DNA from: Bacteroidales bacterium | GTDB lineage: Bacteria; Bacteroidota; Bacteroidia; Bacteroidales; UBA7960 | DNA length: 64,000 bases | Assembly (NCBI GenBank): GCA_019429365.1 | Contig: JAHYJD010000006.1 | Location: 1-64,000, forward strand | Direction of reading: 5' to 3' | Shown here: positions 25,172-46,004 of the stretch, piece by piece | Numbering within the stretch: position 1 is the first letter of the stretch | How the letters are laid out: each line of letters opens with the position of its first letter | Position numbers and translations under genes: made by a program | Notes under the pieces: model-generated | Told to the model about the DNA's origin: nothing | What the model saw: the letters and a program-made list of their open reading frames with translations, nothing else | Databases searched by the model: none

Positions 25172-25179
25172 TATATTTG
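25172..25179 (+). promoter_or_regulatory. -7 promoter box of the hybrid two-component sensor gene
   Basis: TATATTTG matches TAnnTTTG exactly and is 24 bases before the ATG at 25204, implying separate, probably low-level transcription of the sensor. Confidence 0.5.
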
Positions 25180-25203
25180 GGTTTTGCAAGCACCGCCACC
25201 GCA

Positions 25204-28200: not shown

Positions 28201-29532
28201 GAAATTCTTTTCGATCATGATAAAATCGAAAAAATTCTTTTCAACCTATTGAGCAATGCATTTAAGCATACCCCTTCCGGGGGAAAAATAAGCGTCAGCA
28301 TCAGGCAAGAAAGCCATCCACCTATGGTCGAAAACATTGACAGCACAGCTGACCCGGAAAATGCTGCAGAAAAAGACTTCCTGGTTTTTAAAGTGGCCGA
28401 TACAGGCAAGGGAATTCCGGCAACTCACCTACCTCATATTTTTGAAAGGTTTTACCAGGTCGATGAAGCCAGCCCCCACCACAAGTTCGATAGTTCCGGC
28501 ATTGGCCTTTCATACGTAAAAGACCTCGTTTCTGCGCATCAGGGATTAATCAGCGTAGAAAGTGAGCTGAGCAGGGGAAGCACTTTCATTTTCGAGATTC
28601 CGTGCGCCCTCGATGGCATTGAAACCCCTGCTGAAAACATACCCGAAGCCTATAACCCCGCTTCCCTGATATCTGACGACCTGCGCGCCGAGGTGGATAA
28701 CATGAAAAAAGCCATTTCATACGAAAGCACAGATGAAGGGCCACAACCGCTAAATGAAGCCATACAGCCAGGCCGGGCCGAAAGGCTTATGGTAATGATT
28801 GTGGAGGACGAAACCGAACTGCGCGAATTTCTGCGTGATGCCCTGGAGACGGATTACGAAATTATTGACGCACGGAACGGCGCCATCGGATATGAAAAGG
28901 CAGCTGATTATCAGCCAGACATCATCATCACCGATGTTATGATGCCCGAGATGGATGGTTATGAACTCTGCCGTAAATTGAAAGCAAACCTGGCCACCAA
29001 CCACATCCCGGTTATTATGCTTACTGCCCGAATCTCTCCTGAGAATAAACTCGAAGGCTATCAGACGGGAGCTGATTCATATATCGAAAAACCGTTTAGC
29101 ACAGATTTGCTAAAGGTCAGAATTGCAAATTTGCTTCAGTCAAAAGAAAAAACCCGCGAAAAAATCCTGCGCGAACTCATTACCCAGCCTTCAGAAATTG
29201 AGGTACACTCTGAAGATGACAAAATGCTCCGAAAGATCCAGGTCGTTCTTGAAGAAAATATTTCCAATTCTGATTTTGATGTAGAAAGCATGAGTCAGCA
29301 CTTTTTCCTTAGTCGCTGTCACTTCTCGCGCAAAATAAAACAGATCACCGGGCTTACCCCCAAGGAGATTATTGATTCCTACCGTTTAAAAAGAGCCAGC
29401 CAGTTGTTGCAGCAAAAGATTACCATAACCGAAGTAGCCTATATGGTGGGCTTCGACCACCCGAATTCTTTTAGCCGCGCCTTCCGCAAGTTCTATAATA
29501 TGACGCCCAGCGAGTTTGCTTCGCAGAACTAG
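25204..29532 (+). CDS. Hybrid two-component system sensor-regulator (HTCS)
   Basis: A 1442-residue one-protein signalling system of the type that controls SusCD loci. In order: N-terminal signal anchor (about 12-35); periplasmic sensor of Reg_prop propeller repeats (about 45-690); Y_Y_Y domain (about 700-785); transmembrane helix (about 790-812); coiled coil; HisKA with the phospho-accepting His in NISHEFRTPLTLI (about 896); HATPase with LFNLLSNAFKHTP and DTGKGIP (about 990-1130); receiver with Asp in DVMMPEMDGYE (about 1243); and an AraC-type HTH (about 1340-1442). The ATG at 25204 follows a promoter box. It probably binds a pectin oligosaccharide in the periplasm and activates the PL1-SusCD operon next to it. 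Confidence 0.96.
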   Translation: MDLKKIPRENIKALIGYFTIGVLMLFFQSGLLSAQTPFKPVVSDPLLESWRWRSIDVLATKGVRCMTDDSDGNMWFGLDKGIMRYDGYDWVLYDEEEYLRFPVGILFMTSGGQLLAGSEAGLLAFENGQWKRIFPRNDSIHVPVTAIAEMPDGTILAGIQNGLLMVKNERVSVFTVLQRANAFRQDHPYANITVLPDEVLFQRNFGRVDNIYLEDSELIWLFLSRNNDGKLLKFQLTDTLNQVLQKFEVTEELGGFKLPNRNEVLRSSSNELWIINGFYKTGILRKKNSEWELLKLSSIFGGDELHTDIMELGDGSIWIGGLGKLYVYKDGKWSVSSAPALPIPSSRIIFHEARNGQVWIAGMQGDVFRLSYNQDQWVKYQGLNFQHQESSGKEWFISATGQVVFRDAENWQAYDQSHGLIDAPIRLVSTRNGRLWVAGSHQGIAATAFLDNGRWLKQTHPALSWGIDPRSVFQDKEGALWFGASVDRQEALGQISGVLQLRNPDAQSLEWVHHTQQDGIVQHNVYGIAQSPDGAMWLGGTNLLMRSGGRWQTLPDKEYLNEFVDIVHSRQNLWVGSRYYGVFRFNGSNWTQFTNHDGLPSNTIISIYEEQPEKVWVITDRDIAFFDGQKWFSGIFTEEFRMPREGGDIMVDADGDVWVNKSLREWKRRAFPFSITPAEAMEDFWTVRYRRETMPPKTTIHIYSEKVDRSGNTLIGWTGRDFWEETPSRQLNYSYRINRGDWSEFSPETSVVLTKLGSGKHVFEVRARDLDFNVETQPASISFTVTPAIWKQPWFIALVVSFLIVIGFYEARLINRNKSLSKLNTSLSEANKTLENRQMKIELQKETILKQKEELERKALILEEKTAEITSQRDQLKEMVEKVEELSSVKQRFFTNISHEFRTPLTLILGSIERLLSSPDNVEKSRLNLAYETIQRNSKRILRLINQILEIRKIERGKIELNPAPGDIVAFSREITGLFQDLARNQFIDFSFETTLEAKEILFDHDKIEKILFNLLSNAFKHTPSGGKISVSIRQESHPPMVENIDSTADPENAAEKDFLVFKVADTGKGIPATHLPHIFERFYQVDEASPHHKFDSSGIGLSYVKDLVSAHQGLISVESELSRGSTFIFEIPCALDGIETPAENIPEAYNPASLISDDLRAEVDNMKKAISYESTDEGPQPLNEAIQPGRAERLMVMIVEDETELREFLRDALETDYEIIDARNGAIGYEKAADYQPDIIITDVMMPEMDGYELCRKLKANLATNHIPVIMLTARISPENKLEGYQTGADSYIEKPFSTDLLKVRIANLLQSKEKTREKILRELITQPSEIEVHSEDDKMLRKIQVVLEENISNSDFDVESMSQHFFLSRCHFSRKIKQITGLTPKEIIDSYRLKRASQLLQQKITITEVAYMVGFDHPNSFSRAFRKFYNMTPSEFASQN

Positions 29533-29672: not shown

Positions 29673-31049
29673 ATGGAAGTTTTAAAAAGATACCTGCTCA
29701 ACACTTTTAGCATTTTATTGCTAATTGTTGCTTTTTCGCTTCCGGCATGCTACGGTCAAACCGATAATTTGCTTGCTTTCCCAGGGGCTGAGGGTGCCGG
29801 CAAATATACCAGCGGTGGTCGTGGCGGGAAGGTGATAAAAGTCACCAACCTTAACGACAGCGGCCCCGGCAGCCTGCGCGAAGCAATCAAGGCAAAAGGT
29901 CCCCGTACCATTGTTTTCGAAGTTTCGGGAAACATTGAACTCAAATCCCAATTAAATATCAATAATGGCGACCTGACCATTGCAGGGCAAACCGCCCCCG
30001 GCGATGGCATTTGCCTTAAAGGGCACGAGCTCCGCATCAATGCCGACAATATTATTGTCCGCTTCATGCGCTTCAGGCCTGGCGATATTGGAAATGCGGA
30101 ATACGATGCTATTACCGGTATGCGTCACAAAAATATTATCATAGACCATTGCAGTATGAGCTGGTCGACCGATGAAACGGTTTCGTTTTACGACAATGAA
30201 AACGTTACCCTGCAATGGTCTATCCTCAGCGAAAGCCTCAACAATTCTGTTCACAGCAAAGGAGCTCATGGTTACGGTGGCATTTGGGGCGGGAAAAACG
30301 CCTCATTTATATATAACGTCCTTGCGCACCACAGCAGCCGCAACCCTCGCCTGCAGGGAACACGCTACAGCCCGGTGGAAGGAATGGAGAAAATTGAAAT
30401 TGTAAATAACCTGATTTACAATTGGGGCCAGAAAGCCATTTATGGCGGAGAAAACGGGCTGTATAACCTTATCGGAAATGTATTTATTCCTGGTCCGGCT
30501 ACTGAAAGGTCAGCCCGGGAAGAAATTCTTGAACCCTATGCGCCTTACGGACAGTATTTCCTTCAGGACAATATTTTTCTGCATGAAGATGGCCAGCCAA
30601 CTGAGGCAGGTTGGAATCATGTCTCTCTTAATGAAAAAGATAAAGAAGCAGCCACCGCAGAGGAGGCTTTTGTCATTGTAAACAAAGCCCGGGTTTTGGA
30701 TCCTGAAATGGCCTACCGCCTTATGCTCGAATATGCCGGTGCGAATCTTTTCCGCGATCCGGTTGACACAAGAATTATTGAAGAAATCAGGGAAAGGAAA
30801 TCCAACTTCGGAAATCATGGCATTATCGATAGCCAGGACGAAGCAGGCGGTTGGCCTTTGCTCAGGCCGGCTGACCCGCCAATTGATTCTGATGGCGATG
30901 GCATGCCCGACGAATGGGAAATCAGAAACGGGCTCAACCCAAACGACCCTGCCGATGGGAATCTTTTTACCCTGGATAAGAAATACACCAACCTTGAAGT
31001 GTATCTGAATGAAATCATCAGCCACACTTTCCCGCAGATGGAAGATTAA
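29673..31049 (+). CDS. Secreted pectate lyase (PL1, subfamily 2-like)
   Basis: A 458-residue exported lyase with a signal peptide ending near CYGQ (residue 29). The right-handed beta-helix spans about 33-350, with FPGAEGAGKYTSGGRGG, LNDSGPGSLREAI, IIDHCSMSWSTDETVSFYD (calcium-site region) and SSRNPRLQG containing the catalytic Arg near residue 228. A calcium-binding type 3 repeat-like segment (DSDGDGMPDEWE) lies near residue 410 at the C-terminal end. It cleaves polygalacturonate by beta-elimination giving unsaturated ends. Unlike the second PL1 gene it has no T9SS tail, suggesting periplasmic or surface location. It stands just upstream of susC. Confidence 0.92.
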   Translation: MEVLKRYLLNTFSILLLIVAFSLPACYGQTDNLLAFPGAEGAGKYTSGGRGGKVIKVTNLNDSGPGSLREAIKAKGPRTIVFEVSGNIELKSQLNINNGDLTIAGQTAPGDGICLKGHELRINADNIIVRFMRFRPGDIGNAEYDAITGMRHKNIIIDHCSMSWSTDETVSFYDNENVTLQWSILSESLNNSVHSKGAHGYGGIWGGKNASFIYNVLAHHSSRNPRLQGTRYSPVEGMEKIEIVNNLIYNWGQKAIYGGENGLYNLIGNVFIPGPATERSAREEILEPYAPYGQYFLQDNIFLHEDGQPTEAGWNHVSLNEKDKEAATAEEAFVIVNKARVLDPEMAYRLMLEYAGANLFRDPVDTRIIEEIRERKSNFGNHGIIDSQDEAGGWPLLRPADPPIDSDGDGMPDEWEIRNGLNPNDPADGNLFTLDKKYTNLEVYLNEIISHTFPQMED

Positions 31050-31103: not shown

Positions 31104-34100
31104 ATGAAACTAAATCACTTAAACAAGGCATTCAGGTTAACCTCCTTGCTTTTTGTGCTTCTTTTTTCCGGATACAGTTTGTGGGGGCAATCCGCCACGA
31201 TCCGCGGAAACGTGAAGGACTCAAGGGGCGATGATCTGCCAGGGGTTAACGTAATTATTAAAGGAACCACCTCGGGCACTACTACCGATTTCGACGGTAA
31301 TTTCCAGATTCAGGTGCAGGATGCCGCCCAGACGGTGCTGGTTTTCCGTTTTATCGGATTTGAGGAGAAAGAGGTGCTGGTAGGCAGCCAAAGAAACATT
31401 AACGTGGTTCTTGAAGAAAGCCTAACCACCCTGAGCGAATTTGTTGTTATTGGCTACGGTAGTGTACAAAGGCGCGATATTACCGGTTCGGTTGCCTCGG
31501 TGAGCGGCGAAGACATTGCCGCCAAACCCGTTTCGAGCGTGGCCGAGGCCCTTACGGGAAAGCTGGCCGGGGTGCAGGTGCTTACCACCGAAGGCTCGCC
31601 TGATGCCGAGGTTAGGATTAGAGTACGCGGCGGCGGCTCCATTACCGGCGACAACTCACCGCTGTTTATCGTGGATGGCTTTCCCGTGGAGTCTATCAAC
31701 GACATTTCTCCAGCCGACATCGAGTCTATCGACGTACTGAAAGATGCCTCCTCCACTGCCATATACGGATCAAGAGGTGCCAACGGGGTAATTATTGTCA
31801 CTACTAAAAGGGGACTGGAAGGCCGCATGGTGGTGCGCCTCGACTCATATGCCTCCTTTAAACAACTGGCAAACAAGCTCGATGTGCTGTCGCCCTACGA
31901 CTACGTCAAGTTTCAATATGAACGCTCACTACTTGCCAACCAGCCTGCCAGGTACACAGACATTTTCGGAAACTTCCAGGATATGGACCTTTACCAGCAG
32001 GTAACACCCAATGACTGGCAGGACCTGGTGTTTGGCCGCACCGGACACACGTTTAACAACAACCTGAGCATTGCCGGTGGTTCAGATAAAACCACCTATG
32101 CATTCAGCTACAGTAACATCAACGACAGGGCCATCATGCAAATGTCGAGCTTTAAGCGCGACAACGTAAGTCTGAGTTTGTCGAACAAACCCAATGACAA
32201 AATCACCCTCGATTTTTCCATTCGTTATGCCAATACCAAAATTGAAGGTGGTGGAGCCAACGAACAGCAGGAATTTTCTTCGGCCGACTCGCGGCTGAAG
32301 TTTGCCATGATCTACCCTGTATTTCCTGTAACAGGCCTTACCGACGATGTGGAAACAGACCAGGATTTCAACCTGCACAACCCACTGGTTTCCCTGGCCG
32401 ACAACGATCGCTTCCAGCAGCGTCAGGTTTACAACCTGAATGGTAGCCTTACCTGGGAACTGTTGAAAAACCTGCGTTTTAAAACAGAACTGGGATTGGA
32501 AGACCACCGGTATTCGAATGACCGTTTTTACGGCCGCACCACTTATTATGTAAAAAACAGACCTGCCAGTGAGGACCAGGGCTTGCCGGCGGTAATTTTC
32601 ACAAAAACTGCTAGGGAAACTTTCCGCAACACCAACACCCTGGCCTACGATTTGAAAGAACTACTGCCCTCCAATCACAAGTTGAACATTCTTCTGGGTC
32701 AGGAATACATTGTAAGGCAACAAGAATCGCTTGAAAACATTGTGCACGGATTCCCGGCAAGTTTCAACTTTCAGGACGCCACAAGGCTCTCGGCCCAGGC
32801 CAATGCCAACTCCGTTGACAACTACCTGTTCCCCGACGACAATCTACTGTCGTTCTTCGGCCGTGTTAACTATGACTTCCTCAGCAGGTACCTTTTTAGC
32901 GCCACATTCAGGGCCGACGGGTCTTCAAGATTCTCTGAAGGAAACAGATGGGGCTACTTCCCTTCCGCAGCCGTTGCATGGCGCATTTCTGACGAAAGCT
33001 TCATGGAGTTTGCCAAACCATGGCTCGACGACATGAAAATCCGCCTAAGCTATGGTACTGCTGGTAACAATAACATCCCTTCGGGGCAGCTGCTGCAAAC
33101 CCTCGAGGTAAGAAATACCACCTGGGTAAATGCATTCAACAGCTTCTGGGCAGCCACCAAAACCATGGCCAACCCCGACCTGAAGTGGGAAACAACCGTT
33201 ACACGTAACCTTGGTCTCGACTACACCACCCTCAATGGCCGACTCACCGGTTCGTTTGAGGCATATATCAATAACACCGAAGACTTGCTCATTCGCTTCC
33301 CTATTCCCGGTTCGGGCTACGACGATCAGTTCCGCAATATGGGTGAAACAGAAAACCGTGGTTTCGAAGCCATGGTAAATTGGATGGCCATCGACAAGCC
33401 CAACTTTGGCTTCAGCATCAGCGGAAACATAGGGTTCAATAAAAACACCATTAAATCGCTGGGGCTGATGGAAGACTTCTTTGCTGAGTCGGGCTGGGCT
33501 TCTAGCGAAATTGGTTCAGATTATTGGATCGCAACCGGTGGTTCGGTCGGAAAAATGTATGGATATATCAATGCCGGACGCTACGAAGTGTCTGACTTTC
33601 TTGGATATATTAATGGCGTTTGGGTATTGAATGAAGGCGTTGCAAACAGCCAGCCTGTTGTTGGTAATATCAGGCCCGGATCTTTGAAGCTGGTAGACCA
33701 GAACAGCGACGGCATAGTGAATATCGACGACAGGGTGCTAATTGGCGATGCCAATCCCAAGCATACCGGCGGTATTACACTCAATGCCAGGGCTTACGGA
33801 TTTGATCTGCTTGCCGCCTTCAACTGGAGCTATGGCAACGACATTTATAATGCCAATAAAATAGAATACACCTCAACCAGCAAATACCACTCACGTAATA
33901 TGATCGACCTTATGCGCGATGGCGAACGCTGGACCAACCTGCTGCCCGATGGCACCATTAGCAATGATCCTGAGCAGCTGGCTTCCATGAACGCCACCAC
34001 CACCATGTGGTCGCCCCATATGGCCAGGTTTGTGTTTACCGACTGGGCCGTGGAAGATGGTTCATTTCTCAGGCTTAATACCTTGACCCTGGGTTACACC

Positions 34101-34304
34101 CTTCCGAGAGATTTGGTTTCCAGGGCGAAAATTCAAAGCCTTCGCTTTTATGTGAGTGGCTACAATGTTTTCCTCTGGACCAACTACAGCGGCTTCGACC
34201 CGGAAGTGTCCACAAGGCGCAGAACACCCCTTACCCCTGGCGTAGACTACTCTGCTTATCCCAGGAGTCGTTCCATCGTGTTTGGTATGAATCTGAGTTT
34301 CTAA
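31104..34304 (+). CDS. susC: SusC/RagA-family TonB-dependent outer membrane transporter
   Basis: A 1066-residue outer membrane protein. After the signal peptide comes a carboxypeptidase D regulatory-like domain (SATIRGNVKDSRGDDLPGVNV, about 30-105), then the plug (FVVIGYGSVQRRDITGSV; SIDVLKDASSTAIYGSRGANGVIIVTT) and a 22-strand barrel ending in an aromatic SIVFGMNLSF. It imports pectic oligosaccharides with SusD as the lid. It is 54 bases after the PL1 gene and 19 before susD. Substrate assigned from the surrounding PL1, GH28, GH105 and CE genes. Confidence 0.97.
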   Translation: MKLNHLNKAFRLTSLLFVLLFSGYSLWGQSATIRGNVKDSRGDDLPGVNVIIKGTTSGTTTDFDGNFQIQVQDAAQTVLVFRFIGFEEKEVLVGSQRNINVVLEESLTTLSEFVVIGYGSVQRRDITGSVASVSGEDIAAKPVSSVAEALTGKLAGVQVLTTEGSPDAEVRIRVRGGGSITGDNSPLFIVDGFPVESINDISPADIESIDVLKDASSTAIYGSRGANGVIIVTTKRGLEGRMVVRLDSYASFKQLANKLDVLSPYDYVKFQYERSLLANQPARYTDIFGNFQDMDLYQQVTPNDWQDLVFGRTGHTFNNNLSIAGGSDKTTYAFSYSNINDRAIMQMSSFKRDNVSLSLSNKPNDKITLDFSIRYANTKIEGGGANEQQEFSSADSRLKFAMIYPVFPVTGLTDDVETDQDFNLHNPLVSLADNDRFQQRQVYNLNGSLTWELLKNLRFKTELGLEDHRYSNDRFYGRTTYYVKNRPASEDQGLPAVIFTKTARETFRNTNTLAYDLKELLPSNHKLNILLGQEYIVRQQESLENIVHGFPASFNFQDATRLSAQANANSVDNYLFPDDNLLSFFGRVNYDFLSRYLFSATFRADGSSRFSEGNRWGYFPSAAVAWRISDESFMEFAKPWLDDMKIRLSYGTAGNNNIPSGQLLQTLEVRNTTWVNAFNSFWAATKTMANPDLKWETTVTRNLGLDYTTLNGRLTGSFEAYINNTEDLLIRFPIPGSGYDDQFRNMGETENRGFEAMVNWMAIDKPNFGFSISGNIGFNKNTIKSLGLMEDFFAESGWASSEIGSDYWIATGGSVGKMYGYINAGRYEVSDFLGYINGVWVLNEGVANSQPVVGNIRPGSLKLVDQNSDGIVNIDDRVLIGDANPKHTGGITLNARAYGFDLLAAFNWSYGNDIYNANKIEYTSTSKYHSRNMIDLMRDGERWTNLLPDGTISNDPEQLASMNATTTMWSPHMARFVFTDWAVEDGSFLRLNTLTLGYTLPRDLVSRAKIQSLRFYVSGYNVFLWTNYSGFDPEVSTRRRTPLTPGVDYSAYPRSRSIVFGMNLSF

Positions 34305-34323: not shown

Positions 34324-36138
34324 ATGAAAAAAATATTTTATATCCTCTTAACCCTGGCGCTAACCGCAAGCCTGACAAGCTGCGAGAATGTACTGGAGGC
34401 GCCGACCAAGTCTTCACTCGACGAATCTGTCGTGTTCTCTGATCCCACCCTTGCCGAGGGTGCCATTGCCGGCATTATTCAGTCGTTTTGCGAAACCAAC
34501 TCATACCGCGGCAGGTACCTGGTGTTTTATGGCCCAAATACCGACGCCGAGGTACGCAACGCCCTGCGCAATATCAACGATGATCCAGCCAGGCTGGTGA
34601 ATTACAACACCAATGTGAACAACTCCCAAATGAACACCGAGAACAATGCCTGGGCCATGTTTTACCAGGGCATTGAACGTGCCAACATTGCCATACGCGG
34701 TCTGCGCACCTATGGCGATGTGGAAAACAACCCAAGGATGGCGCAGATTCTCGGTGAGATTATTACGCTCAGGGCCGTGCTTTATTGGGATTTGGTTAAA
34801 GGCTGGGGCGATGTTCCGGCACGTTTCGAGCCCATTAGCGCCGAAACCATTTACATTCCAAGATCAGACCGCGATGTGATTTACAAGCAACTGCTGGCCG
34901 ACCTCGAAGAAGCTGCCACCCTGGTGGCCTGGCCGAACGAAACCTCATGGACCACTTCTTCCGAAAGGATCAACAAGGCATTTGTTAAAGGTCTGCGTGC
35001 CCGCATTGCCCTGGCTGCCGGCGGATATTCACAGCGTACCGATGGCGTCAGGCTCAGCAACGACCCCGAACTGTCGAGGGCCAATATGTATGCCATTGCC
35101 AGGCAGGAATGCCTTGATGTGATTAACAGCGGACGTGCCCAACTTCAGGGTTTTGAAGAGGTTTTCAGGGCCCTTCACCGGGAAGACTTAATTGCCGGAA
35201 GGGAAATTTTATGGGAAATACCATTCAGCGAAGGCCGCGGCCGGGTAATTTTCGATCTTGGCGTAAGGCATACTACCACCAATAAGTACACCGGCCAGAA
35301 CCGCGGTGGCACCAACGGCCCCAATCCCATTATGTTTTACGAATACGACCGCGACGACGCGCGACGTGATGTAACCTGCGTGCCTTACGAATGGTCAAAG
35401 AATTCTTCAGATGTGGATGGCTCCTTCCCGTTTCAGATTCCAACCAACAACGGAAGGTGGCAGTTTGGAAAATACCGTTACGAATGGCTTTATCAGGAAG
35501 CCGGCCGCAGGGTAACCTCCACCAATGACGACGGCCTGAACTGGCTTTATATGAGATATTCAGATGTGTTGCTCATGGCTGCCGAAGCCATCAATGAGCT
35601 GGACGGTCCCGGGGCCGCTGCGCCATACCTGAGGCAGGTTCGCCAAAGGGCTTTTCCCAACAACCCCGAAAAGGTCGATGCTTTTATGGCTCAGGCCACT
35701 GCCAGCAAGGAAGCCTTTTTCGATGCAATTATTGATGAAAGGGCCCTTGAATTTACTGGCGAAATGTTGCGAAAAGCTGACCTGATTCGCTGGAACTTGC
35801 TGAGTGAAAAACTCAATGAAGCCAAAACCAAGCTTTTCCAGCTCGAAAATCGCATTGGGCCATACGAGAACCTGCCCGAAAGAATCTATTACACATATGC
35901 CGACGATGGTGAAACCCTGATCATTTACGGGCTGAACTTCGGCGACACCGACGAAATTGGTGCCAGCCTCGGATATCCCGAAAACAAAACCTGGGTCATT
36001 TCCTCCACCGGCGAGCAATCGACCTACTGGGATGCCCTGTTTTTGCGCGATCCCAACCAGCAGCAATTCTGGCCCATTTGGCAGGTTTTTGTTGATGGAA
36101 GTAACGGCCAGCTTAATAACGATGGTTACGATTTCTAG
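34324..36138 (+). CDS. susD: SusD/RagB-family surface glycan-binding lipoprotein
   Basis: A 604-residue lipoprotein (lipobox SLTSCEN, Cys near 20) with the SusD helical TPR-like scaffold: AWAMFYQGIERANIAIRGL near residue 108, ILGEIITLRAVLYWDLVKGWGDVP near 140, and the C-terminal RYSDVLLMAAEAINEL and IIDERALEFTGEMLRKADLIRWNLL. It pairs with the SusC immediately upstream and binds pectin fragments at the cell surface. Confidence 0.97.
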   Translation: MKKIFYILLTLALTASLTSCENVLEAPTKSSLDESVVFSDPTLAEGAIAGIIQSFCETNSYRGRYLVFYGPNTDAEVRNALRNINDDPARLVNYNTNVNNSQMNTENNAWAMFYQGIERANIAIRGLRTYGDVENNPRMAQILGEIITLRAVLYWDLVKGWGDVPARFEPISAETIYIPRSDRDVIYKQLLADLEEAATLVAWPNETSWTTSSERINKAFVKGLRARIALAAGGYSQRTDGVRLSNDPELSRANMYAIARQECLDVINSGRAQLQGFEEVFRALHREDLIAGREILWEIPFSEGRGRVIFDLGVRHTTTNKYTGQNRGGTNGPNPIMFYEYDRDDARRDVTCVPYEWSKNSSDVDGSFPFQIPTNNGRWQFGKYRYEWLYQEAGRRVTSTNDDGLNWLYMRYSDVLLMAAEAINELDGPGAAAPYLRQVRQRAFPNNPEKVDAFMAQATASKEAFFDAIIDERALEFTGEMLRKADLIRWNLLSEKLNEAKTKLFQLENRIGPYENLPERIYYTYADDGETLIIYGLNFGDTDEIGASLGYPENKTWVISSTGEQSTYWDALFLRDPNQQQFWPIWQVFVDGSNGQLNNDGYDF

Positions 36139-36164: not shown

Positions 36165-37721
36165 ATGAATAAGCACATAAAAAAATTCGCATTTGCAGTA
36201 AGCTTTCTGGCTTTCCTTTTTACCGGAGGCTGCACTGACGATATCCTTCCTGAGATTACCACCCTTGATGTGGACCGCTTGTTTTCGCCCACCGATCTTG
36301 ATGCCAGGGTAGTAAACCAAACCTCTGTGCGGCTTACCTGGAAGAAAGTAAATAAGGCTGATTTTTATAACGTAGAGTTTTTCGAAAATGCCAACGAGGA
36401 TTTCAGCGGAGCGCCAGAGCGTGCCGTAAACGGGGTACTTTTCGAAGACCTTCCGCTTGTTGTAGCCGGATTTGCCGGAGAAACCACCTACTCCGTTCGT
36501 GTTCAGGCGGTTGGCGAAGGCATTGACGAATCAAAGTGGATCAGCACCACCTTCACCACCGATGCCGAACAGATACTCTTCCCCATCGATCCGGAGGAAA
36601 TTACCGCCAGCGGTGTTACGCTGAGGTGGCCTGCCGGCGAATTTGCAACCCACATTACCCTGATGCCCGGCGATATCAACCGCCCGGTAACAGCTGATGA
36701 GGTAGCTGAAGGGGTAGCAGTGATTACTGGACTACAAAGCGAAACCGAATACACGGCCAAACTCATGAACGAGGATAAAACCCGCGGCACCATGGTATTT
36801 ACCACTTTAATCGATATTGGTGATGCTATTTTGGTTAATCCCGGCGACGACTTGAAAGCCATTGTGGAGGCAGCCCAACCCGGCGATGCCTTTGCCCTGA
36901 TGCCCGGTGAATACGTAATTGAAGGCAACATTGAAATTTACACCAATTTAAGCATTATCGGTGCCCGACCATATGATAAACCTGAAGTGCTTGGAGCCGT
37001 TTTCAGAATGAAAGATGGCTCAGCCCTCAGACTCAAGGATTTAATTCTTGATGGCGCTACCAGCCCCGATGGAAACCAGTTGGTGATATATGACGAAGTG
37101 GGCACCTATGGCGACCTGATCATTGAAGACTGTGTGATAAAGAACAATGTGAAAGGGGTAATTTATGGCAGTGTAGCCGCTTTGGTGGAATATGTTTTAG
37201 TTAAAGGAACCATTATTGCCAATGTTGAGTGCGTGGGCGGCGATTTCATCGACTTCCGCTCGGGCATGCCCAAGGCGCTCGATTTTATCAACAATACGGT
37301 TTACAACTCCGCCCTCAACCGCGACCTGTTCCGCCTGGATAATGCTACGGCTTACTCTGGCGATTATACCGTGCTGGTCAATATCGAAAGCAACACTTTC
37401 TACAACATTATCTCTACTGATGGAACCACCCGGCGCGTACTTTACATTAGGCTTGCGTCTCATGAGATCACTGTAAAGAAAAACATCTTTGCCCAGGTGC
37501 TAGGAAACTACTCCAACCAGTCGGCCACAACGGTGGTAGAAATGAGCAGCAACAACTACCACAATGCAGACAACCTCTTCAGTCCAGAATTTACCGTTTA
37601 TGATTCAGGCAATTACACCACTTACAATCCGAGCTTTGTAGATCCGGCCAATGGTAATTTCACGGTAACCAACGAAGAGCTGATCATTTTCCGTATCGGC
37701 GACCCACGCTGGCTGCCATAA
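36165..37721 (+). CDS. DUF4957/DUF5123-type surface lipoprotein with FN3-like domains
   Basis: A 518-residue lipoprotein (lipobox TGGCTDD, Cys near 23). Two fibronectin III-like domains fill about 40-215 (for example TSVRLTWKKVNKADFYNVEFF). They are followed by a parallel beta-helix from about 225 (NPGDDLKAIVEAAQPGDAFALMPGEY) to the C-terminus, where DUF4957 and DUF5123 are found in relatives. These proteins are common directly after SusCD in pectin loci and are thought to be surface glycan-binding proteins, possibly lyase-related. No catalytic residues could be identified. It lies 26 bases after susD. Confidence 0.85.
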   Translation: MNKHIKKFAFAVSFLAFLFTGGCTDDILPEITTLDVDRLFSPTDLDARVVNQTSVRLTWKKVNKADFYNVEFFENANEDFSGAPERAVNGVLFEDLPLVVAGFAGETTYSVRVQAVGEGIDESKWISTTFTTDAEQILFPIDPEEITASGVTLRWPAGEFATHITLMPGDINRPVTADEVAEGVAVITGLQSETEYTAKLMNEDKTRGTMVFTTLIDIGDAILVNPGDDLKAIVEAAQPGDAFALMPGEYVIEGNIEIYTNLSIIGARPYDKPEVLGAVFRMKDGSALRLKDLILDGATSPDGNQLVIYDEVGTYGDLIIEDCVIKNNVKGVIYGSVAALVEYVLVKGTIIANVECVGGDFIDFRSGMPKALDFINNTVYNSALNRDLFRLDNATAYSGDYTVLVNIESNTFYNIISTDGTTRRVLYIRLASHEITVKKNIFAQVLGNYSNQSATTVVEMSSNNYHNADNLFSPEFTVYDSGNYTTYNPSFVDPANGNFTVTNEELIIFRIGDPRWLP

Positions 37722-37789: not shown

Positions 37790-39097
37790 ATGAAAATTCG
37801 CACTTTTACTTTTTCCCTTTTATTATTAATACCCTTGCTAAGTCTGGCTCAAGGCCAGTCGGGGCCCATTGGCTGGGCTTCGGTCGATGCCAATGGGCAG
37901 AATGGCACTACCGGCGGGGCCGGCGGCAGTGTGGTGACTGTAACCAATATGGCCGATCTGATCACCTACACTGGCATGTCGACAGACCCATTGATAATTC
38001 AAATCGATGGGATGATTCTCATCACCCCCAAAGGACGCTACATAGACGTAAATTCAAACAAAACCATAATAGGTATCGGGCCCGATTCAGGTATCAGCGA
38101 GGGCGGATTCAGGGTAAGAAACAGCAACAAAAACGTTATTTTCATGAACCTGAACATCCAGGACACTTTTGTTGAGGGAGACTGGGATGGGAAGACAAAT
38201 GACTTTGATGGTATTCAGCTTACACAATCGGCGCACCACATCTGGGTGCACAAATGCACCTTCTTGAGGCAGGGCGATGGCGCTCTTGACATTACCAACG
38301 GGGCCGATTACATCACCGTTTCGCATTCCTATTTCGGTGCAAACAACAAGGTAAGCCTTATTGGCAGCAGCGATACCGACACCTATACCGACCGCTATAA
38401 GGTTACCATGCACCACAACTGGTTCGACAAAACCACGCAAAGGCATCCCAGGGTCAGGTTTGGCTGGGTTCACGTGTTCAATAACTACTACCACGACATG
38501 GGCCGTTACGGATTTGAGGAACATGGCGTATCGAGCAATGGTTATGGAATTGGCGTGGGAGTGAATGCACACATTTGGTCGGAGCACAATTATTTTGAAA
38601 AATGCGTGTACCCTTCGCAGTTTTACGACAACACAGCAAACCCCGGCTACATTATCGACAACGGAAGCCATTTCGTACAAAGCGGAAACATGCTTACCAG
38701 GCCTGATGGTTTGGTGTGGGACCCATCCGATTATTATGATTATGAACTCGACCCGGCCGACGAAGTGAAGGAAATCGTTATGGCCAATGCAGGCACCGGA
38801 GATAATACCACCAGCATTGCTGACGGATTGCAACTCAACGGCCAGCTCGAGTTGAGCAACTTCCCCAACCCGTTTAGCGAGTTTACCACCCTGGTGTTTG
38901 AAATGCCTGAAGCAGGCAAGGTACGCATCAGCCTTTTCGACATTACCGGAAGAAAAATTAGTGAAATTGCCAACGAGCATCGCCTGGCAGGAAAAAACGA
39001 AATCAGACTGCAACGTAACGGACTCAGAAGAGGAATCTACCTTATCAGCCTTGAATTTAAGGGAAGAATTATCACAAAAAAACTGGCTGTACACTAA
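37790..39097 (+). CDS. Pectate lyase PL1 with T9SS sorting domain
   Basis: A 435-residue exported lyase. The signal peptide ends near SLAQ (residue 21) and the beta-helix spans about 25-310. Calcium and active-site landmarks are WDGKTNDFDGIQL, GDGALDITNGADYITVSH, and TTQRHPRVRFGWVHVFNNYY with the catalytic Arg near residue 222. The C-terminal 80 residues (LSNFPNPFSEFTTLVFEMP to IITKKLAVH) form a type A T9SS sorting domain, so it is exported across the outer membrane. It differs from the first PL1 in subfamily and export route. Confidence 0.93.
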   Translation: MKIRTFTFSLLLLIPLLSLAQGQSGPIGWASVDANGQNGTTGGAGGSVVTVTNMADLITYTGMSTDPLIIQIDGMILITPKGRYIDVNSNKTIIGIGPDSGISEGGFRVRNSNKNVIFMNLNIQDTFVEGDWDGKTNDFDGIQLTQSAHHIWVHKCTFLRQGDGALDITNGADYITVSHSYFGANNKVSLIGSSDTDTYTDRYKVTMHHNWFDKTTQRHPRVRFGWVHVFNNYYHDMGRYGFEEHGVSSNGYGIGVGVNAHIWSEHNYFEKCVYPSQFYDNTANPGYIIDNGSHFVQSGNMLTRPDGLVWDPSDYYDYELDPADEVKEIVMANAGTGDNTTSIADGLQLNGQLELSNFPNPFSEFTTLVFEMPEAGKVRISLFDITGRKISEIANEHRLAGKNEIRLQRNGLRRGIYLISLEFKGRIITKKLAVH

Positions 39098-40442: not shown

Positions 40443-43400
40443 ATGAAGAAAAAAATCTACACTATTTCAATTGCAAAGCGCTTAACGGCTCTCTTGTTTT
40501 TAGTGGCCGTTTGCTCCTTTGGTGCATTGGCACAAAGCTGGACCGTTTACGATGCCGGTGTTTTGCCAAATGCTGCAAACCCTGTTTTTTCTGCATCCAG
40601 CGGCACTTTTTCGGCTGATGAAAACATGATCATTGATGATCCTTCTATTGAAGGAAACAGCTTGCTGTGGATGGAAGTCCCCGGCAAAGCTGATGGCCCC
40701 ACAACCCAGACTCAATATTATTGGAGAATGAATTTTGCCAGTCTTGGAGTTGATGTTACCAACCTTACCGTGGTAATGCGCGTAAAGGGTCACCCTGGCA
40801 GGGATATGGCCATGGACCTCGACATGCATTACAATGACATTCGATCGAGAGTAACATTGCATACCGAAACGAACCTGGCCAGGATCAGAAATGGCTCAGG
40901 AACTGACACACCCCTCGATGTTGATCTGACTGAGTGGAATATTTACAGGTTTGTAATGAGCGCAACCGAAACCAAACTGTATGTTAATGAAGATGCTACC
41001 CCGGTCATGGTGTTTACACCTGCAGCCGCTGCAAGTTCAAACAAACATTTCCGCTTTGGCGATGGGGACTCTGGAAATGACTTTGGTGCAGATATCGACT
41101 GGATAATCTGGGACGTTACAGGCGATTATGCACCCAATGAGGGCTTGCCCATTCCGGCTGAACTTCTTCCCGGCGATCCGGAACCAACAAACTGGACCAT
41201 TTACGACGCCAGCGTGCTGCCCAATGCGTTTGTTCCGAATTTCGTAACTGCCAGTGGGTCATTCGTCGAAACTGAAAATATTATCATTAATGACCCAGAC
41301 ATCCCTGGAAATAAATTGCTGTGGATGGACATTAACGGCAATCCTTCCCAAACTCTATTATGGCGAATGAACTTCGTCAGTCATGAAATTCTGGTTGACG
41401 ACCTCACCATAGTAAAGCGCGTAAAAGGCCACCCTGAACGCGACATGGCCCTTGACCTGGACATGGATTACAATGGCATACGCACAAGGGTAACTATTCA
41501 CAGCACTTACGGAGGCGCGGACAACGTGGCAAGGATAAGAAATGGCACAGGTTCAACCGGAAGTACCGTTGAACTCCCGGTCGACGTGCTCGAATGGAAT
41601 ACCTACCGTTTTGCCATGAATGCCACCGAAACAAAGGTTTACATTAACGAAGACCCGGATCCTGTTATAGTAATTACTCCCGCCGTTGCCGGCACAAACC
41701 GCCACTTCCGTTTTGGCGATGGCGACAGCAGCGCTTCATTTGGCGCTGACATCGATTGGGTAATCTGGGATGTAACGGGTTCATTCGCACCCGGTGAGGG
41801 AAGCCCCTTACCCGACTTCAGCTACACCCCGGGCTCTGATGCAAGTTTGGCCGATATTCTTGCTGATGGCGAACCTATCGCAGATTTCGACCCGGCAGTT
41901 TATAATTACGAGCTGGTGCTGCCCACCGGCACTACTAATGTTCCGGTAATCACGGCAGTTGCAACCGACCCCGCTGCAACACTCGACATTACGCAAGCCG
42001 ATGCCATTCCCGGCACCGCCACCATTGAAGTAACTGCCGAGAACGGATTTACTGCAAGGACTTATACTGTTGATATTCGTCTGGTTTCAACCGATGCAAC
42101 CCTGGAAGAAATCCATGTAAATGGTGAGCCTTTGGAAGGCTTCGATTCCGACATCCTTGCCTACACTGTTCAACTGCCCATTGAAACGACTACAGAAATT
42201 CCCGTTGTGGCAGCTGTTGCAACCGACGAAAATGCGGGGGTGGCCATCACACAAGCCACGGAAATAGAAGGCAGTGCCACAATTCTTGTAACCGCTGAAG
42301 ATGGCACAACACAACTTACCTACGTGCTGAATTTCGTGCTGGTTTCAGTCGATGCTACTCTATCCGACCTCATGGTCGATGGCACCACCATCGACGGCTT
42401 TGACCCGGAAGTGACCGAATACATTTATTTGCTGCCTGTTGGCACCACTGAAATTCCGCAAGTAAGTGCAACGGCAAACAACGAAAACGCAACGATGGTT
42501 ATCACCCAGGCTGTTGCTTTGCCAGGAGAGGCTTCTGTGGTTGTTACTGCTGAAGATGGCGAAACTGAGTTAACCTATATCGTGTATTTCCTGAGCGGAT
42601 CGGACGACGCCACACTGGCAGACCTGCTCGTTGATGGGGTAACCATCCCTGGTTTTGATCCGGAAGTTATCAACTACGAATATGTTGTGTCTGCAAGCAC
42701 TATTGATGTTCCGGTTGTTTCAGCTGTTGCAAGCGATGAAAACGCCGAAGTGGTCATTGTTCAGGCCGATGACATTCCCGGCACAGCAACCATTTCCGTT
42801 ACTGCTGAAGATGAATTCACCGTATTGGTTTATACAGTGCATATCAGGTATATTTCGAACGACGCCAGCCTTGAGCACATAATGGTGGATGGAAAAGCCA
42901 TTCCCGGTTTTGACCCTGAGGAGTTAAATTACTCTATTAATATGCCGCACGGCACGGTGCTCGTTCCCCTGGTTACTGCCATTGCAGCCGATATGAGTGC
43001 CACAGTAGCAATTACCCAGGCCACCCAGATTCCGGGTGTGGCAGAAGTTGAAGTTACGGCCGAAGATGGCGTTGCCACCCTTACCTATACTATCCAGCTT
43101 AATGAAGCCGATTACGACTGGCGTTACTACGATGCCAGCGTGCTTCCCAATGAGCATGTGCCTACCTTCAATCCGAGCAATGTGGGCGGATCGGGTGGAA
43201 CAAATACCATCGTAGCTGATCCCCAAGATGATTCCAATAGGTTCCTTGAGCTTATTACGATAGAAAATGGCGACAACCACATGTGGGCCACCGCGCTTCA
43301 GGAAGAAACCCCGGCGGTAACCCTGGTTATGAAAGTGAAGGCTGCCAACGATGTGGCAAGAAGGGTAGTTGAACTTGATGTACACCACAATGGCATTCGC

Positions 43401-44516
43401 GAACGCATGTATATCAACCGCGAGTCTAACCGCGTGCGTCTTAACGAAGGCATTGGCGGAGGTGACGGCGGCGAAATTGAAGCTCCCGAAGGTGTGAACC
43501 TGAGCGACTGGAACATTTACAGGCTTACCAAGGAAAGCAACTCCACCAAGCTTTACCTGAACGAAAATCCGGAGCCCATTGCTGTTGGTAACACGACCAC
43601 TTCAACAACCAACCAATATTTCCGCTTTGGCGATGGCAACGGCTCGCATAATGCCGCAGTATTGATGGATTGGATCGTATGGGACGAAACCGGTGCCTAT
43701 GCACCCGGAGAAGGATTGTTTATCCCTGCAAAGGTGGTAACCCCCGACTGGGATGCCAGCCTGACCGAACTGCTGGCCGATGGCGTGCTGATCGAAGGCT
43801 TTGACTCCCAGATAACTGATTACGAGTTTGTTTACACCGAAGAGCCCGCCGACATTCCTGTTATTTCGGCCGTGCTGAGCAACCCCGATGCCACCCTGGT
43901 GGTAACCCAGGCCGATGAATTCCCGGGAGTGGCTACAGCAGAAGTAACGGCAGTAAACGGATTTACTGTATGGACATACACTGTGACCTTCAGGTACATC
44001 TCATCGGATGCCACACTGTCTGACATTTTGGTAAACAATGTGTCCCTCGAAGGCTTTGATCCTGATGTAACGGATTACGCCGTGGTATTACCCGCCGGAA
44101 CAACAGCCATCCCCGTGGTGGATGCTGTGGCCAACGATGCCAATGCCGAAATCGATATCACCCAGCCTGCCGAAGTGGAAGGCACAGCCACCATCCTGGT
44201 AACTGCCGAAGATGGCTCTGAACTGACTTACACCCTCAATTTTAGTTTGTTTGACGATACCAGCATTTCTTCGCCTGAGGTACCCGGCCTGCGCCTGTAC
44301 CCCAACCCTGCCACCACACAGCTCACCATTGGCTGGGGCGGCAATGCTTCAGAAGCTTATGTGGAAATCATCAGTCTCACCGGGCAGGTTCTCTATAGCA
44401 CCCGTCTGGAGTCGCACACTGAAACAATTGGCGTAAGCAACCTGCAGCAGGGTACTTACATTATCAGAATCACTGCCGGACAGCAGCGCAGCAGCCGACT
44501 GTTTATGAAGCAATAA
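40443..44516 (+). CDS. Giant modular T9SS-secreted protein with repeated lectin-like and cadherin-like modules
   Basis: A 1357-residue exported protein. After a signal peptide (cut near GALAQ, residue 30) it has: module L1 (about 32-248), L2 (about 250-460), five cadherin-like beta-sandwich repeats (about 466-888), L3 (about 891-1100), two more such repeats (about 1104-1270), and a C-terminal T9SS domain (LRLYPNPATTQLTIGWGG to end). The L modules share YDAxVLPN at the start, a central LxxWNxYRF, LYVNE and HFRFGDG, and end in DWIIWDVTGxYAPxEG. They look like concanavalin-like sandwiches, but I do not recognise a named family. The repeats follow DATLxDLxVDG to VTAEDG-TYTV. A surface pectin-binding adhesin is plausible from its location between GH105 and GH28; no catalytic site was seen. 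Confidence 0.85.
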   Translation: MKKKIYTISIAKRLTALLFLVAVCSFGALAQSWTVYDAGVLPNAANPVFSASSGTFSADENMIIDDPSIEGNSLLWMEVPGKADGPTTQTQYYWRMNFASLGVDVTNLTVVMRVKGHPGRDMAMDLDMHYNDIRSRVTLHTETNLARIRNGSGTDTPLDVDLTEWNIYRFVMSATETKLYVNEDATPVMVFTPAAAASSNKHFRFGDGDSGNDFGADIDWIIWDVTGDYAPNEGLPIPAELLPGDPEPTNWTIYDASVLPNAFVPNFVTASGSFVETENIIINDPDIPGNKLLWMDINGNPSQTLLWRMNFVSHEILVDDLTIVKRVKGHPERDMALDLDMDYNGIRTRVTIHSTYGGADNVARIRNGTGSTGSTVELPVDVLEWNTYRFAMNATETKVYINEDPDPVIVITPAVAGTNRHFRFGDGDSSASFGADIDWVIWDVTGSFAPGEGSPLPDFSYTPGSDASLADILADGEPIADFDPAVYNYELVLPTGTTNVPVITAVATDPAATLDITQADAIPGTATIEVTAENGFTARTYTVDIRLVSTDATLEEIHVNGEPLEGFDSDILAYTVQLPIETTTEIPVVAAVATDENAGVAITQATEIEGSATILVTAEDGTTQLTYVLNFVLVSVDATLSDLMVDGTTIDGFDPEVTEYIYLLPVGTTEIPQVSATANNENATMVITQAVALPGEASVVVTAEDGETELTYIVYFLSGSDDATLADLLVDGVTIPGFDPEVINYEYVVSASTIDVPVVSAVASDENAEVVIVQADDIPGTATISVTAEDEFTVLVYTVHIRYISNDASLEHIMVDGKAIPGFDPEELNYSINMPHGTVLVPLVTAIAADMSATVAITQATQIPGVAEVEVTAEDGVATLTYTIQLNEADYDWRYYDASVLPNEHVPTFNPSNVGGSGGTNTIVADPQDDSNRFLELITIENGDNHMWATALQEETPAVTLVMKVKAANDVARRVVELDVHHNGIRERMYINRESNRVRLNEGIGGGDGGEIEAPEGVNLSDWNIYRLTKESNSTKLYLNENPEPIAVGNTTTSTTNQYFRFGDGNGSHNAAVLMDWIVWDETGAYAPGEGLFIPAKVVTPDWDASLTELLADGVLIEGFDSQITDYEFVYTEEPADIPVISAVLSNPDATLVVTQADEFPGVATAEVTAVNGFTVWTYTVTFRYISSDATLSDILVNNVSLEGFDPDVTDYAVVLPAGTTAIPVVDAVANDANAEIDITQPAEVEGTATILVTAEDGSELTYTLNFSLFDDTSISSPEVPGLRLYPNPATTQLTIGWGGNASEAYVEIISLTGQVLYSTRLESHTETIGVSNLQQGTYIIRITAGQQRSSRLFMKQ
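40536..41185 (+). repeat. L module copy 1 in the giant T9SS protein
   Basis: First of three copies of a roughly 210-residue module (from SWTVYDAGVLPN to YAPNEGLPIPAE). It shares the landmarks RVKGHPGRDMAMDLDMHYN and HFRFGDGDSG with copy 2. Confidence 0.7.
41190..41815 (+). repeat. L module copy 2 in the giant T9SS protein
   Basis: Second copy, starting NWTIYDASVLPNAFVPNF. It is the closest match to copy 1 (RVKGHPERDMALDLDMDYN; HFRFGDGDSSASFGADIDW), suggesting recent duplication of these two. Confidence 0.7.
41838..43110 (+). repeat. Five tandem cadherin-like beta-sandwich repeats
   Basis: Five consecutive units of about 85 residues, each opening with DASL or DATL and followed by GFDP, VPVV-A-A-, ITQA and VTAEDG. 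They match the cadherin-like beta-sandwich pattern (PF12733 type) found as spacers in surface proteins. Confidence 0.75.
43113..43740 (+). repeat. L module copy 3 in the giant T9SS protein
   Basis: Third and most divergent copy (YDWRYYDASVLPNEHVPTF to YAPGEGLFIPAK). It keeps NIYRLTKESNSTKLYLNENPEP and YFRFGDGNGS. It is placed between the two blocks of cadherin-like repeats. Confidence 0.7.
43752..44250 (+). repeat. Two further cadherin-like repeats
   Basis: Two units opening DASLTELLADG and DATLSDILVNN, the last directly before the T9SS sorting domain. Confidence 0.72.
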
Positions 44517-44579: not shown

Positions 44580-46004
44580 ATGACAGCCAGATCATTCAAT
44601 GCAATGCTCTTCATAACCATAGTGGTTTTCCTGGCCGGGTCCTGCTCAAGGGGCCCGGCTAAGGAAGCCGCTGAGGTTTCATGGGAGACTATGGAAGAAA
44701 TTTTATCTGAAATTGTTGCTCCCATATTTCCCAATGCCGTTTATGATGTGACCGAATTTGGTGCCGTCGGCGATGGTGAAACCCTGTCGACCGAAGCCAT
44801 CAATGCAGCCATCATAGCCTGCTCAGAAGCCGGAGGCGGCATGGTAATGATTCCGGAGGGCGACTACCTTACCGGGGCCATTCACCTTAAATCCAATGTC
44901 AACCTGCATCTTTCTGAAGGGGTAGTGCTGAAATTCAGTCGAAACCCCGAAGACTTCCTGCCAATGGTGTTTACCCGCTGGGAAGGGGTTGAACTTTTCA
45001 ACTACTCCCCTTTTGTGTATGCCTATGAGCAGCAAAATGTGGCCATTACCGGGCAAGGCACTCTCGACGGACAAGCAACTTCAGAGCATTGGTGGTACTG
45101 GAAAGGCCCCTGGAGCCGCGCCACCTGGGAAATCGTTCCTGAGAACCAGGTAGAAGCCCGCGACAGGCTCATAGAAATGGCAGAAAACGGGTTGCCGGTC
45201 GAAGAACGGCAGTTTGGCGCCGGCCATTACCTCAGGCCAAACTTCGTGCAGTTTTACAAATGCCAGAATATCCTCATGGAAGGCATTACCATTATCAACT
45301 CCCCCATGTGGGTCATTCACCCGGTGCTATCCGAAAACATCACTATTTCAAATGTTTCGGTGATCAGCCACGGGCCCAACAACGATGGCTGCAATCCTGA
45401 GTCGAGCCGCAACATCCTTATACAGGACAGCTACTTTGACACGGGCGACGACTGCATCGCCATCAAGTCGGGTCGAAATGCCGACGGACGCCGCCTTAAT
45501 GTACCCTCCGAAAACATCATAGTGCGTCGCTGCACCATGCGCGATGGGCACGGTGGCGTGGTGATGGGCAGCGAAATTTCGGGCAGCGTGCGCAACGTTT
45601 TTGCCGAAGACTGCATTATGGACAGCCCCAACCTCGACCGCATCATTCGCATTAAAACCAATTCCATCAGGGGTGGGGTGATCGAAAACATTTTCGTGCG
45701 CAACATCAACGTGGGAAGGGTTCGCCAGGCCATACTGCATATCGACTTCGACTACGAAGAAGGCGATGCCGGGGCGTTTACACCCCTGGTGCGCAACATT
45801 CACCTCGACAACATCACCAGCCAGAGCAGCGACCGGGCCATTTTCATCAATGCCTATGAACGTGCTCCCGTAACCGGGGTTTATATTAAAGACTGCACCT
45901 TTAACGGGGTGGAGAAAGACAACCTGATCAATAACGTGGAAGACCTGGTGCTGGAAAACGTGACCCTCAACGGAGAACCCATGCCGGGCCTCTCTCCTGA
46001 ATAA
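44580..46004 (+). CDS. GH28 polygalacturonase lipoprotein
   Basis: A 474-residue lipoprotein (lipobox LAGSCSRG, Cys near 21). The parallel beta-helix carries all four GH28 active-site motifs: NNDGCNPESS (NTD-like, near 261), DTGDDCIAIKSG (DD, near 282), GHGGVVMGSE (GHG, near 322) and RIIRIKTNS (RIK, near 360). VTEFGAVGDGETLSTEAINAAI at the N-terminus is typical. It hydrolyses galacturonan, probably as an exo-enzyme on oligomers inside the periplasm or at the surface, giving saturated galacturonate for UxaC. It is the last pectin gene of the right arm and follows a hairpin. Confidence 0.95.
   Translation: MTARSFNAMLFITIVVFLAGSCSRGPAKEAAEVSWETMEEILSEIVAPIFPNAVYDVTEFGAVGDGETLSTEAINAAIIACSEAGGGMVMIPEGDYLTGAIHLKSNVNLHLSEGVVLKFSRNPEDFLPMVFTRWEGVELFNYSPFVYAYEQQNVAITGQGTLDGQATSEHWWYWKGPWSRATWEIVPENQVEARDRLIEMAENGLPVEERQFGAGHYLRPNFVQFYKCQNILMEGITIINSPMWVIHPVLSENITISNVSVISHGPNNDGCNPESSRNILIQDSYFDTGDDCIAIKSGRNADGRRLNVPSENIIVRRCTMRDGHGGVVMGSEISGSVRNVFAEDCIMDSPNLDRIIRIKTNSIRGGVIENIFVRNINVGRVRQAILHIDFDYEEGDAGAFTPLVRNIHLDNITSQSSDRAIFINAYERAPVTGVYIKDCTFNGVEKDNLINNVEDLVLENVTLNGEPMPGLSPE

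Follow-up and report, generated by a model that had tools for sequence, protein, structure and literature searches.

The window analysed here, a stretch of 64,000 nucleotides on contig C80 of genome G000, a Bacteroidota draft assembly of 3.57 Mb and 224 contigs, carries a run of pectin-degradation genes, among them a single open reading frame for a large protein predicted to be exported by the type IX secretion system (T9SS). This protein combines three copies (L1, L2 and L3) of a module that we call L with a series of cadherin-like repeats and a C-terminal sorting domain (Table 1). L is a real domain family that has so far escaped curation, with a known fold of the concanavalin A-like (ConA-like) lectin type and probably a known kind of function, carbohydrate binding.

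The threefold repetition of L is far beyond chance, with 59-63% identity between L1 and L2 (BLAST E ~1e-84) and 33-39% identity of L3 to either of them (E 1e-30 to 1e-36). An initial annotation made from the sequence alone had singled out these modules by shared landmarks, all of which are present, in the variants YDAGVLPN/YDASVLPN, HFRFGDG/YFRFGDG and DWIIWDVTG/DWVIWDVTG/DWIVWDETG. It had also described seven cadherin-like repeats as spacing the three copies. The seven repeats are indeed found (PF12733; 71.4 bits against a Pfam cut-off of 24.2; about 85 residues each, mutual identity 35-64%), but they do not separate L1 from L2, which stand in tandem with a linker of about 10 residues. The T9SS tail was confirmed by PF18962 (1e-12, 48.5 bits, cut-off 27) and TIGR04183 (3.5e-13, 49.3 bits, cut-off 23); the protein has both the signal peptide and the C-terminal Por_Secre_tail of type A T9SS cargo. 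A whole-genome search found no further L modules in this genome, and the one frame read on the opposite strand of the gene is interrupted by many stops.

Table 1. The L protein and the surrounding pectin genes in the window
Feature	Position	Strand	Basis
Whole gene, 1357-residue T9SS-exported protein, SP-L1-L2-C1..C5-L3-C6-C7-CTD	40443..44516	+	single open reading frame, Pfam and NCBIfam
Signal peptide (SP) MKKKIYTISIAKRLTALLFLVAVCSFGALAQ	40443..40535	+	read directly from sequence
L1 module, probable ConA-like lectin fold by homology with L2	40536..41156	+	sub-threshold Laminin_G_3
L2 module, predicted all-beta ConA-like fold, pLDDT 89.8, nearest PDB entry CBM40 2w68	41187..41816	+	
Five cadherin-like beta-sandwich repeats (C1 to C5; PF12733), stalk between L2 and L3	41832..43109	+	
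L3 module, predicted ConA-like fold, pLDDT 88.6, nearest PDB entry CBM40 2w68	43116..43727	+	
Two more cadherin-like repeats (C6, C7)	43746..44255	+	PF12733
Type A T9SS C-terminal sorting domain (CTD)	44295..44513	+	PF18962, TIGR04183
Hybrid two-component sensor (HTCS; Reg_prop, Y_Y_Y, HisKA, HATPase, RR, AraC HTH), likely locus regulator	25177..29532	+	
Pectate-lyase-like protein, 458 residues, sub-threshold PL1 match (18.3 bits, cut-off 24)	29673..31049	+	
SusC-like TonB-dependent receptor	31104..34304	+	
SusD-like protein	34324..36138	+	
FN3-DUF4957-DUF5123 lipoprotein, placed where a surface glycan-binding protein would be expected	36165..37721	+	
PL1 pectate lyase with T9SS tail	37790..39097	+	
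GH105/GH88 unsaturated uronyl hydrolase, only PF07470 match found in the window genome	39154..40383	+	
GH28 polygalacturonase-type lipoprotein	44580..46004	+	

Searches of Pfam and NCBIfam gave no match above threshold for the L modules of the window, with nothing credible in NCBIfam, and the open-access literature yielded no description of the module; by these sequence comparisons L forms a family of its own that is absent from the curated libraries searched. Laminin_G_3 (PF13385) matches all three modules below threshold, with 27.5 bits for the entire three-module protein against a cut-off of 27.6 that no single module reaches, and gives a weak match along the core strands in 14 of 27 family members, below or near the cut-off (best E 7.6e-6). 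Sequence searches of the PDB produced no match up to E 10 with a 3-member profile and only spurious FlgE matches with a 14-member one, and the best matches of the 27-member profile were laminin G (LamG) domains of neurexin (E 5.6e-5). AlphaFold models of L2 (pLDDT 89.8, pTM 0.88) and L3 (pLDDT 88.6, pTM 0.86), built from alignments that combine the window sequences with related ones, are both all-beta. Although the two modules are just 35% identical to each other, Foldseek ranked the same structure first for both over about 200 residues, the sialic-acid-binding CBM40 lectin domain of a bacterial sialidase (2w68; E 8.5e-8 for L2 and 4.2e-8 for L3; TM 0.62-0.72). Other ConA-like lectins and glucanases followed, then PL7 alginate lyases and CBM66 lower down, and domain 4 of AbnA was listed too; hundreds of PDB entries matched at E<=1e-3, those listed being mostly ConA-like and 6-16% identical to L. 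Because of these models and this ranking, the assignment of L to the ConA-like lectin/LamG superfamily as a predicted jelly-roll beta-sandwich is well supported, and its fold would not be new. The description of the module as unrecognised therefore holds for Pfam and NCBIfam families but not at superfamily level, where the predicted structure places it and the weak sequence matches point the same way. The profile search and structure prediction proposed as checks by the initial annotation thus returned no Pfam carbohydrate-binding module (CBM) and ConA-like models for L2 and L3.

Beyond the fold, CBM40 would resemble L as an accessory domain whose ligand is a carboxylated sugar. In canonical CBM40 an arginine pair holds the sialic acid carboxylate (PMC5736709), the site being formed by Glu/Arg/Arg (E126, R128 and R204 of RgCBM40), and a tempting, putative parallel may be drawn to the basic residues conserved among the 27 L members (R141 in 27/27, R99 in 25/27, R78 in 23/27 and K80 in 21/27). 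The two differ in that their identity is 10-14% and that L occurs in a uronate and not a sialic-acid context, and the CBM40 and sialidase-lectin models of Pfam matched neither the window modules (up to E 10) nor the 27 members (up to E 1). CBM66, together with PF06439 (the 3-keto-disaccharide hydrolase model), shares the ConA-like fold, is among the fold matches (4b1m) and matches 3 of 27 members weakly in sequence, but the sequence match is sub-threshold and the fold score lies below that of CBM40. CBM77, which binds homogalacturonan of low esterification (PMC5943554), shares the ligand proposed for L. The alginate-binding CBM96 and CBM113, the latter proposed in 2026 from marine flavobacteria (PMC13235733), are accessory modules of uronate-degrading enzymes, but CBM113 is a nine-stranded beta-barrel and CBM96 has its own Pfam model, unmatched by L; no CBM model in Pfam matched the window modules at E up to 10. 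A CBM96 protein is a neighbour of L in one locus (L040).

Relatives of L were collected by a collection scan and whole-genome searches and amount to about 30 modules in total. The family is rare, with members in 4 of 396 genomes of a phylum sample (window genome included), in 10 of 393 genomes of an order sample, some via weak fragments only, and in 8 of 199 genomes of Neomarinimicrobiota/Fidelibacterota, the phylum of locus L012; weak partial matches in G808, G469 and G1151 were judged to be general LamG or unrelated and dropped. Among 25 loci examined in Bacteroidota and Neomarinimicrobiota, where some assignments were made by reading open reading frames or by local tblastn instead of profile search, enzymes for uronate polysaccharides were found near L in about 23, mostly those for pectin (PL1, PL9, PL10, GH28, GH105 and CE8). 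In 17 of the 25, pectin enzymes are next to the L gene or part of it (the window, L009, L010, L011, L012, L041, L022, L035, L038, L046, L065, L066, L067, L068, L069, L071 and L072), GH28, GH67 or GH105 lies near it together with a uronate isomerase recognised by eye in four (L019, L020, L039 and L040), and alginate/glucuronan-type lyases are nearby in L021 and L037. A later test set of 8 loci contained 7 pectin loci, the eighth being on a 6.4 kb contig, and the sole GH88 gene of the window genome, of Perlabentimonas and of G840 lies within about 6 kb of L. The link between L and uronate polysaccharides is strong. A new family of pectin modules, as originally suggested, agrees with the recurrence of L beside pectin genes in unrelated genomes and its fusion to a PL1 enzyme in one of them, but the alginate/glucuronan-type loci led us to reject specificity for pectin only; the ligand would be pectin in most loci and alginate or glucuronan in a few. 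In L022 the gene next to L (L022:737-3418) encodes GH105 fused to FN3, a LamG domain proper and a T9SS tail.

L is also a discrete domain joined to carbohydrate-active enzymes, as is characteristic of CBMs. In Alkalitalea saponilacus (L011) it stands in one protein with a PL1 pectate lyase, cadherin-like repeats and a T9SS tail, and in G122 (L021) two L modules follow a PL20-like lyase (PF14099, sub-threshold) along with FN3 and cadherin-like stretches. Further fusions are to DUF4957/DUF5123 in G743 and, according to local tblastn, in G1200, and to a domain that received no assignment in G048 and G870; single-module L proteins of about 280-340 residues with T9SS tails also occur. L is joined to DUF4957/DUF5123 units in L038:7128-10379 and in L066:11191-15666, apparently several in a row in the latter, followed by a LamG-like stretch; the sequences contain hints that DUF4957 and DUF5123 may themselves be involved in pectin recognition or cleavage. 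In L005:1501-2742 and L046:9036-11564, L is followed by an alpha/beta-looking domain with a motif of about ADLVIIGRxxxSxDF (no Pfam match in L046), and similar-looking stand-alone T9SS proteins adjoin L genes at L046:11752-12780 and L071:8137-9120. In a tree of the modules, L3 of the window clusters with the second L of Perlabentimonas and G014 (98-99% bootstrap) and L1 and L2 cluster with first modules, that of G014 and, with less certainty, that of Perlabentimonas. Because L1/L2 and L3 group separately in this way, the distal/proximal arrangement should be older than these genera; the G014 protein stops at a contig end, which bears on the dating of the L1-L2 doubling. The alginate-context modules did not come out as one group in the tree, many deep forks of which are weakly supported.

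In the window, the L gene lies between GH105 and GH28 in a SusC/SusD pectin locus, as first described. The run from the HTCS regulator to GH28 is operon-like, with a gap of about 60 bp on either side of the L gene. Upstream on the minus strand are a CE8 pectinesterase, GH43, a GDSL esterase, DUF4861, a short-chain dehydrogenase, KduI and then a LacI regulator, followed by a 2-keto-3-deoxy-6-phosphogluconate (KDPG) aldolase and a TRAP transporter on the plus strand, and the whole looks like a complete pectin-utilisation region. Homologues of the pectate-lyase-like protein at 29673-31049 (47-50% identity) occur near L genes in five other loci (L066, L068, L069, L071 and L072), and this protein, perhaps a divergent pectate lyase, is therefore a recurrent partner of L. 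DUF4861 proteins are found in two pectin loci (window 17330-18577, minus strand, and L038:4247-5521) and are candidates for an uncharacterised step of pectin breakdown. Outside the pectin genes, 53037-57203 on the minus strand encodes a 1388-residue T9SS protein with a YCF48/BNR-like propeller, BACON and HYDIN-type Ig domains and an InlB repeat.

Because relatives of L are nearly always beside or fused to pectin or alginate enzymes, L is probably a CBM for uronate polysaccharides. From sequence and modelled structure we consider it fairly probable that it is a non-catalytic ConA-like/LamG carbohydrate-binding domain for uronic-acid polysaccharides, serving here as a multivalent pectin tether on the cell surface, and the PL1, PL20-like and DUF4957/DUF5123 fusions, typical of CBMs, count in favour of this. 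With background rates taken from genome searches, a GH88/105 gene is found no more than 10 kb from L in 8 of 16 genomes compared with 0.30 expected under random placement (P ~1e-10), and in 7 of 13 after removal of three syntenic or closely similar loci (P ~1e-9). Several points weigh on the other side: these figures assume random placement and leave the general clustering of secreted carbohydrate proteins uncorrected, and L036 and the short contig L070 have no uronate enzymes in the DNA at hand. The chief difficulty and main puzzle is that all L modules of the window are highly acidic (isoelectric point 4.3-4.6, net charge about -15), which disfavours binding of a polyanion unless it occurs via Ca2+ or a local basic patch.

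This acidity would also suit a structural or protein-binding LamG-type domain that binds no glycan, acting as a spacer or as a dock for partners from the polysaccharide utilisation locus, with the link to pectin arising through the host proteins. LamG domains often bind proteins, those of neurexin are the best PDB sequence matches of the L profile, and the X122 jelly-roll domains showed no binding to plant walls (PMC10916295). Nevertheless, we hold this explanation to be unlikely: seven Ig-like spacers are already present in the window protein, and L recurs in unrelated architectures (PL1, PL20-like, DUF4957/5123 and single-module proteins) with the uronate context kept, which suits substrate binding better than a fixed partner. 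A CBM for another matrix component, either neutral side chains (arabinan, galactan) or methyl-esterified stretches, would fit the negative charge and the match to domain 4 of the arabinanase AbnA, but is improbable given that alginate/glucuronan-type loci, without such side chains, point to the uronate backbone. Least credible, and highly improbable, is an unrecognised polysaccharide lyase or hydrolase of jelly-roll type acting on uronate polymers, as suggested by PL7 alginate lyases and GH16-type glucanases among the Foldseek matches and by the degradative contexts: the columns kept in at least 25 of 27 members (W3, P12, D36, N42, T74, R99, R141, E155, G177, D190, W191, P202, G205 and P209) include no His, Gln or Tyr pair that is invariant or nearly so and neither the catalytic His/Tyr/Gln set nor the E-x-D-x-E motif of lyase/GH16-type jelly-roll enzymes, and since no His or Tyr is invariant there is no lyase-type catalytic set, while chains with at least two copies, and fusions with complete lyases, suit an accessory module.

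As a multivalent pectin tether, the window protein would be exported by Sec and then T9SS and held at the outer surface through its type A tail, a route of export and attachment that is established for T9SS cargo. L1 and L2 would be paired at the distal end, with L3 as a proximal site beyond a spacer of five rigid Ig-like repeats spanning perhaps 20 nm, and the three copies could grip homogalacturonan with multivalent avidity, keeping the polymer close to the PL1 lyase, GH28 and GH105 encoded alongside and to the SusC/SusD pair for uptake. As is general for the ConA-like fold, binding in L would take place on the concave side of the sheet; R141, R99, R78 and K80 are candidate carboxylate contacts and D36, E155, D190 and D195 a candidate Ca2+ site, though some of these residues may be structural. 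More tentatively, and with considerable doubt, L may found a new CBM family for carboxylated uronate backbones generally (pectate, alginate and glucuronan), using a conserved site, built on arginines or bridged by Ca2+, on a fold like that of CBM40. It would then be a lineage of acidic-sugar lectins in parallel to the sialic-acid-binding CBM40, serving in two phyla both as enzyme appendage and as multivalent tether.

Known modules for the recognition of pectin or polyuronates are few, and little is charted of the enzyme-free glycan-binding proteins that environmental Bacteroidota export by T9SS. With the roughly 30 modules as its basis, a family model would name proteins that are now nameless, mark uronate-degrading loci in genomes and perhaps yield probes for pectin or alginate. 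It would moreover shed light on how these bacteria keep hold of gel-forming polysaccharides.

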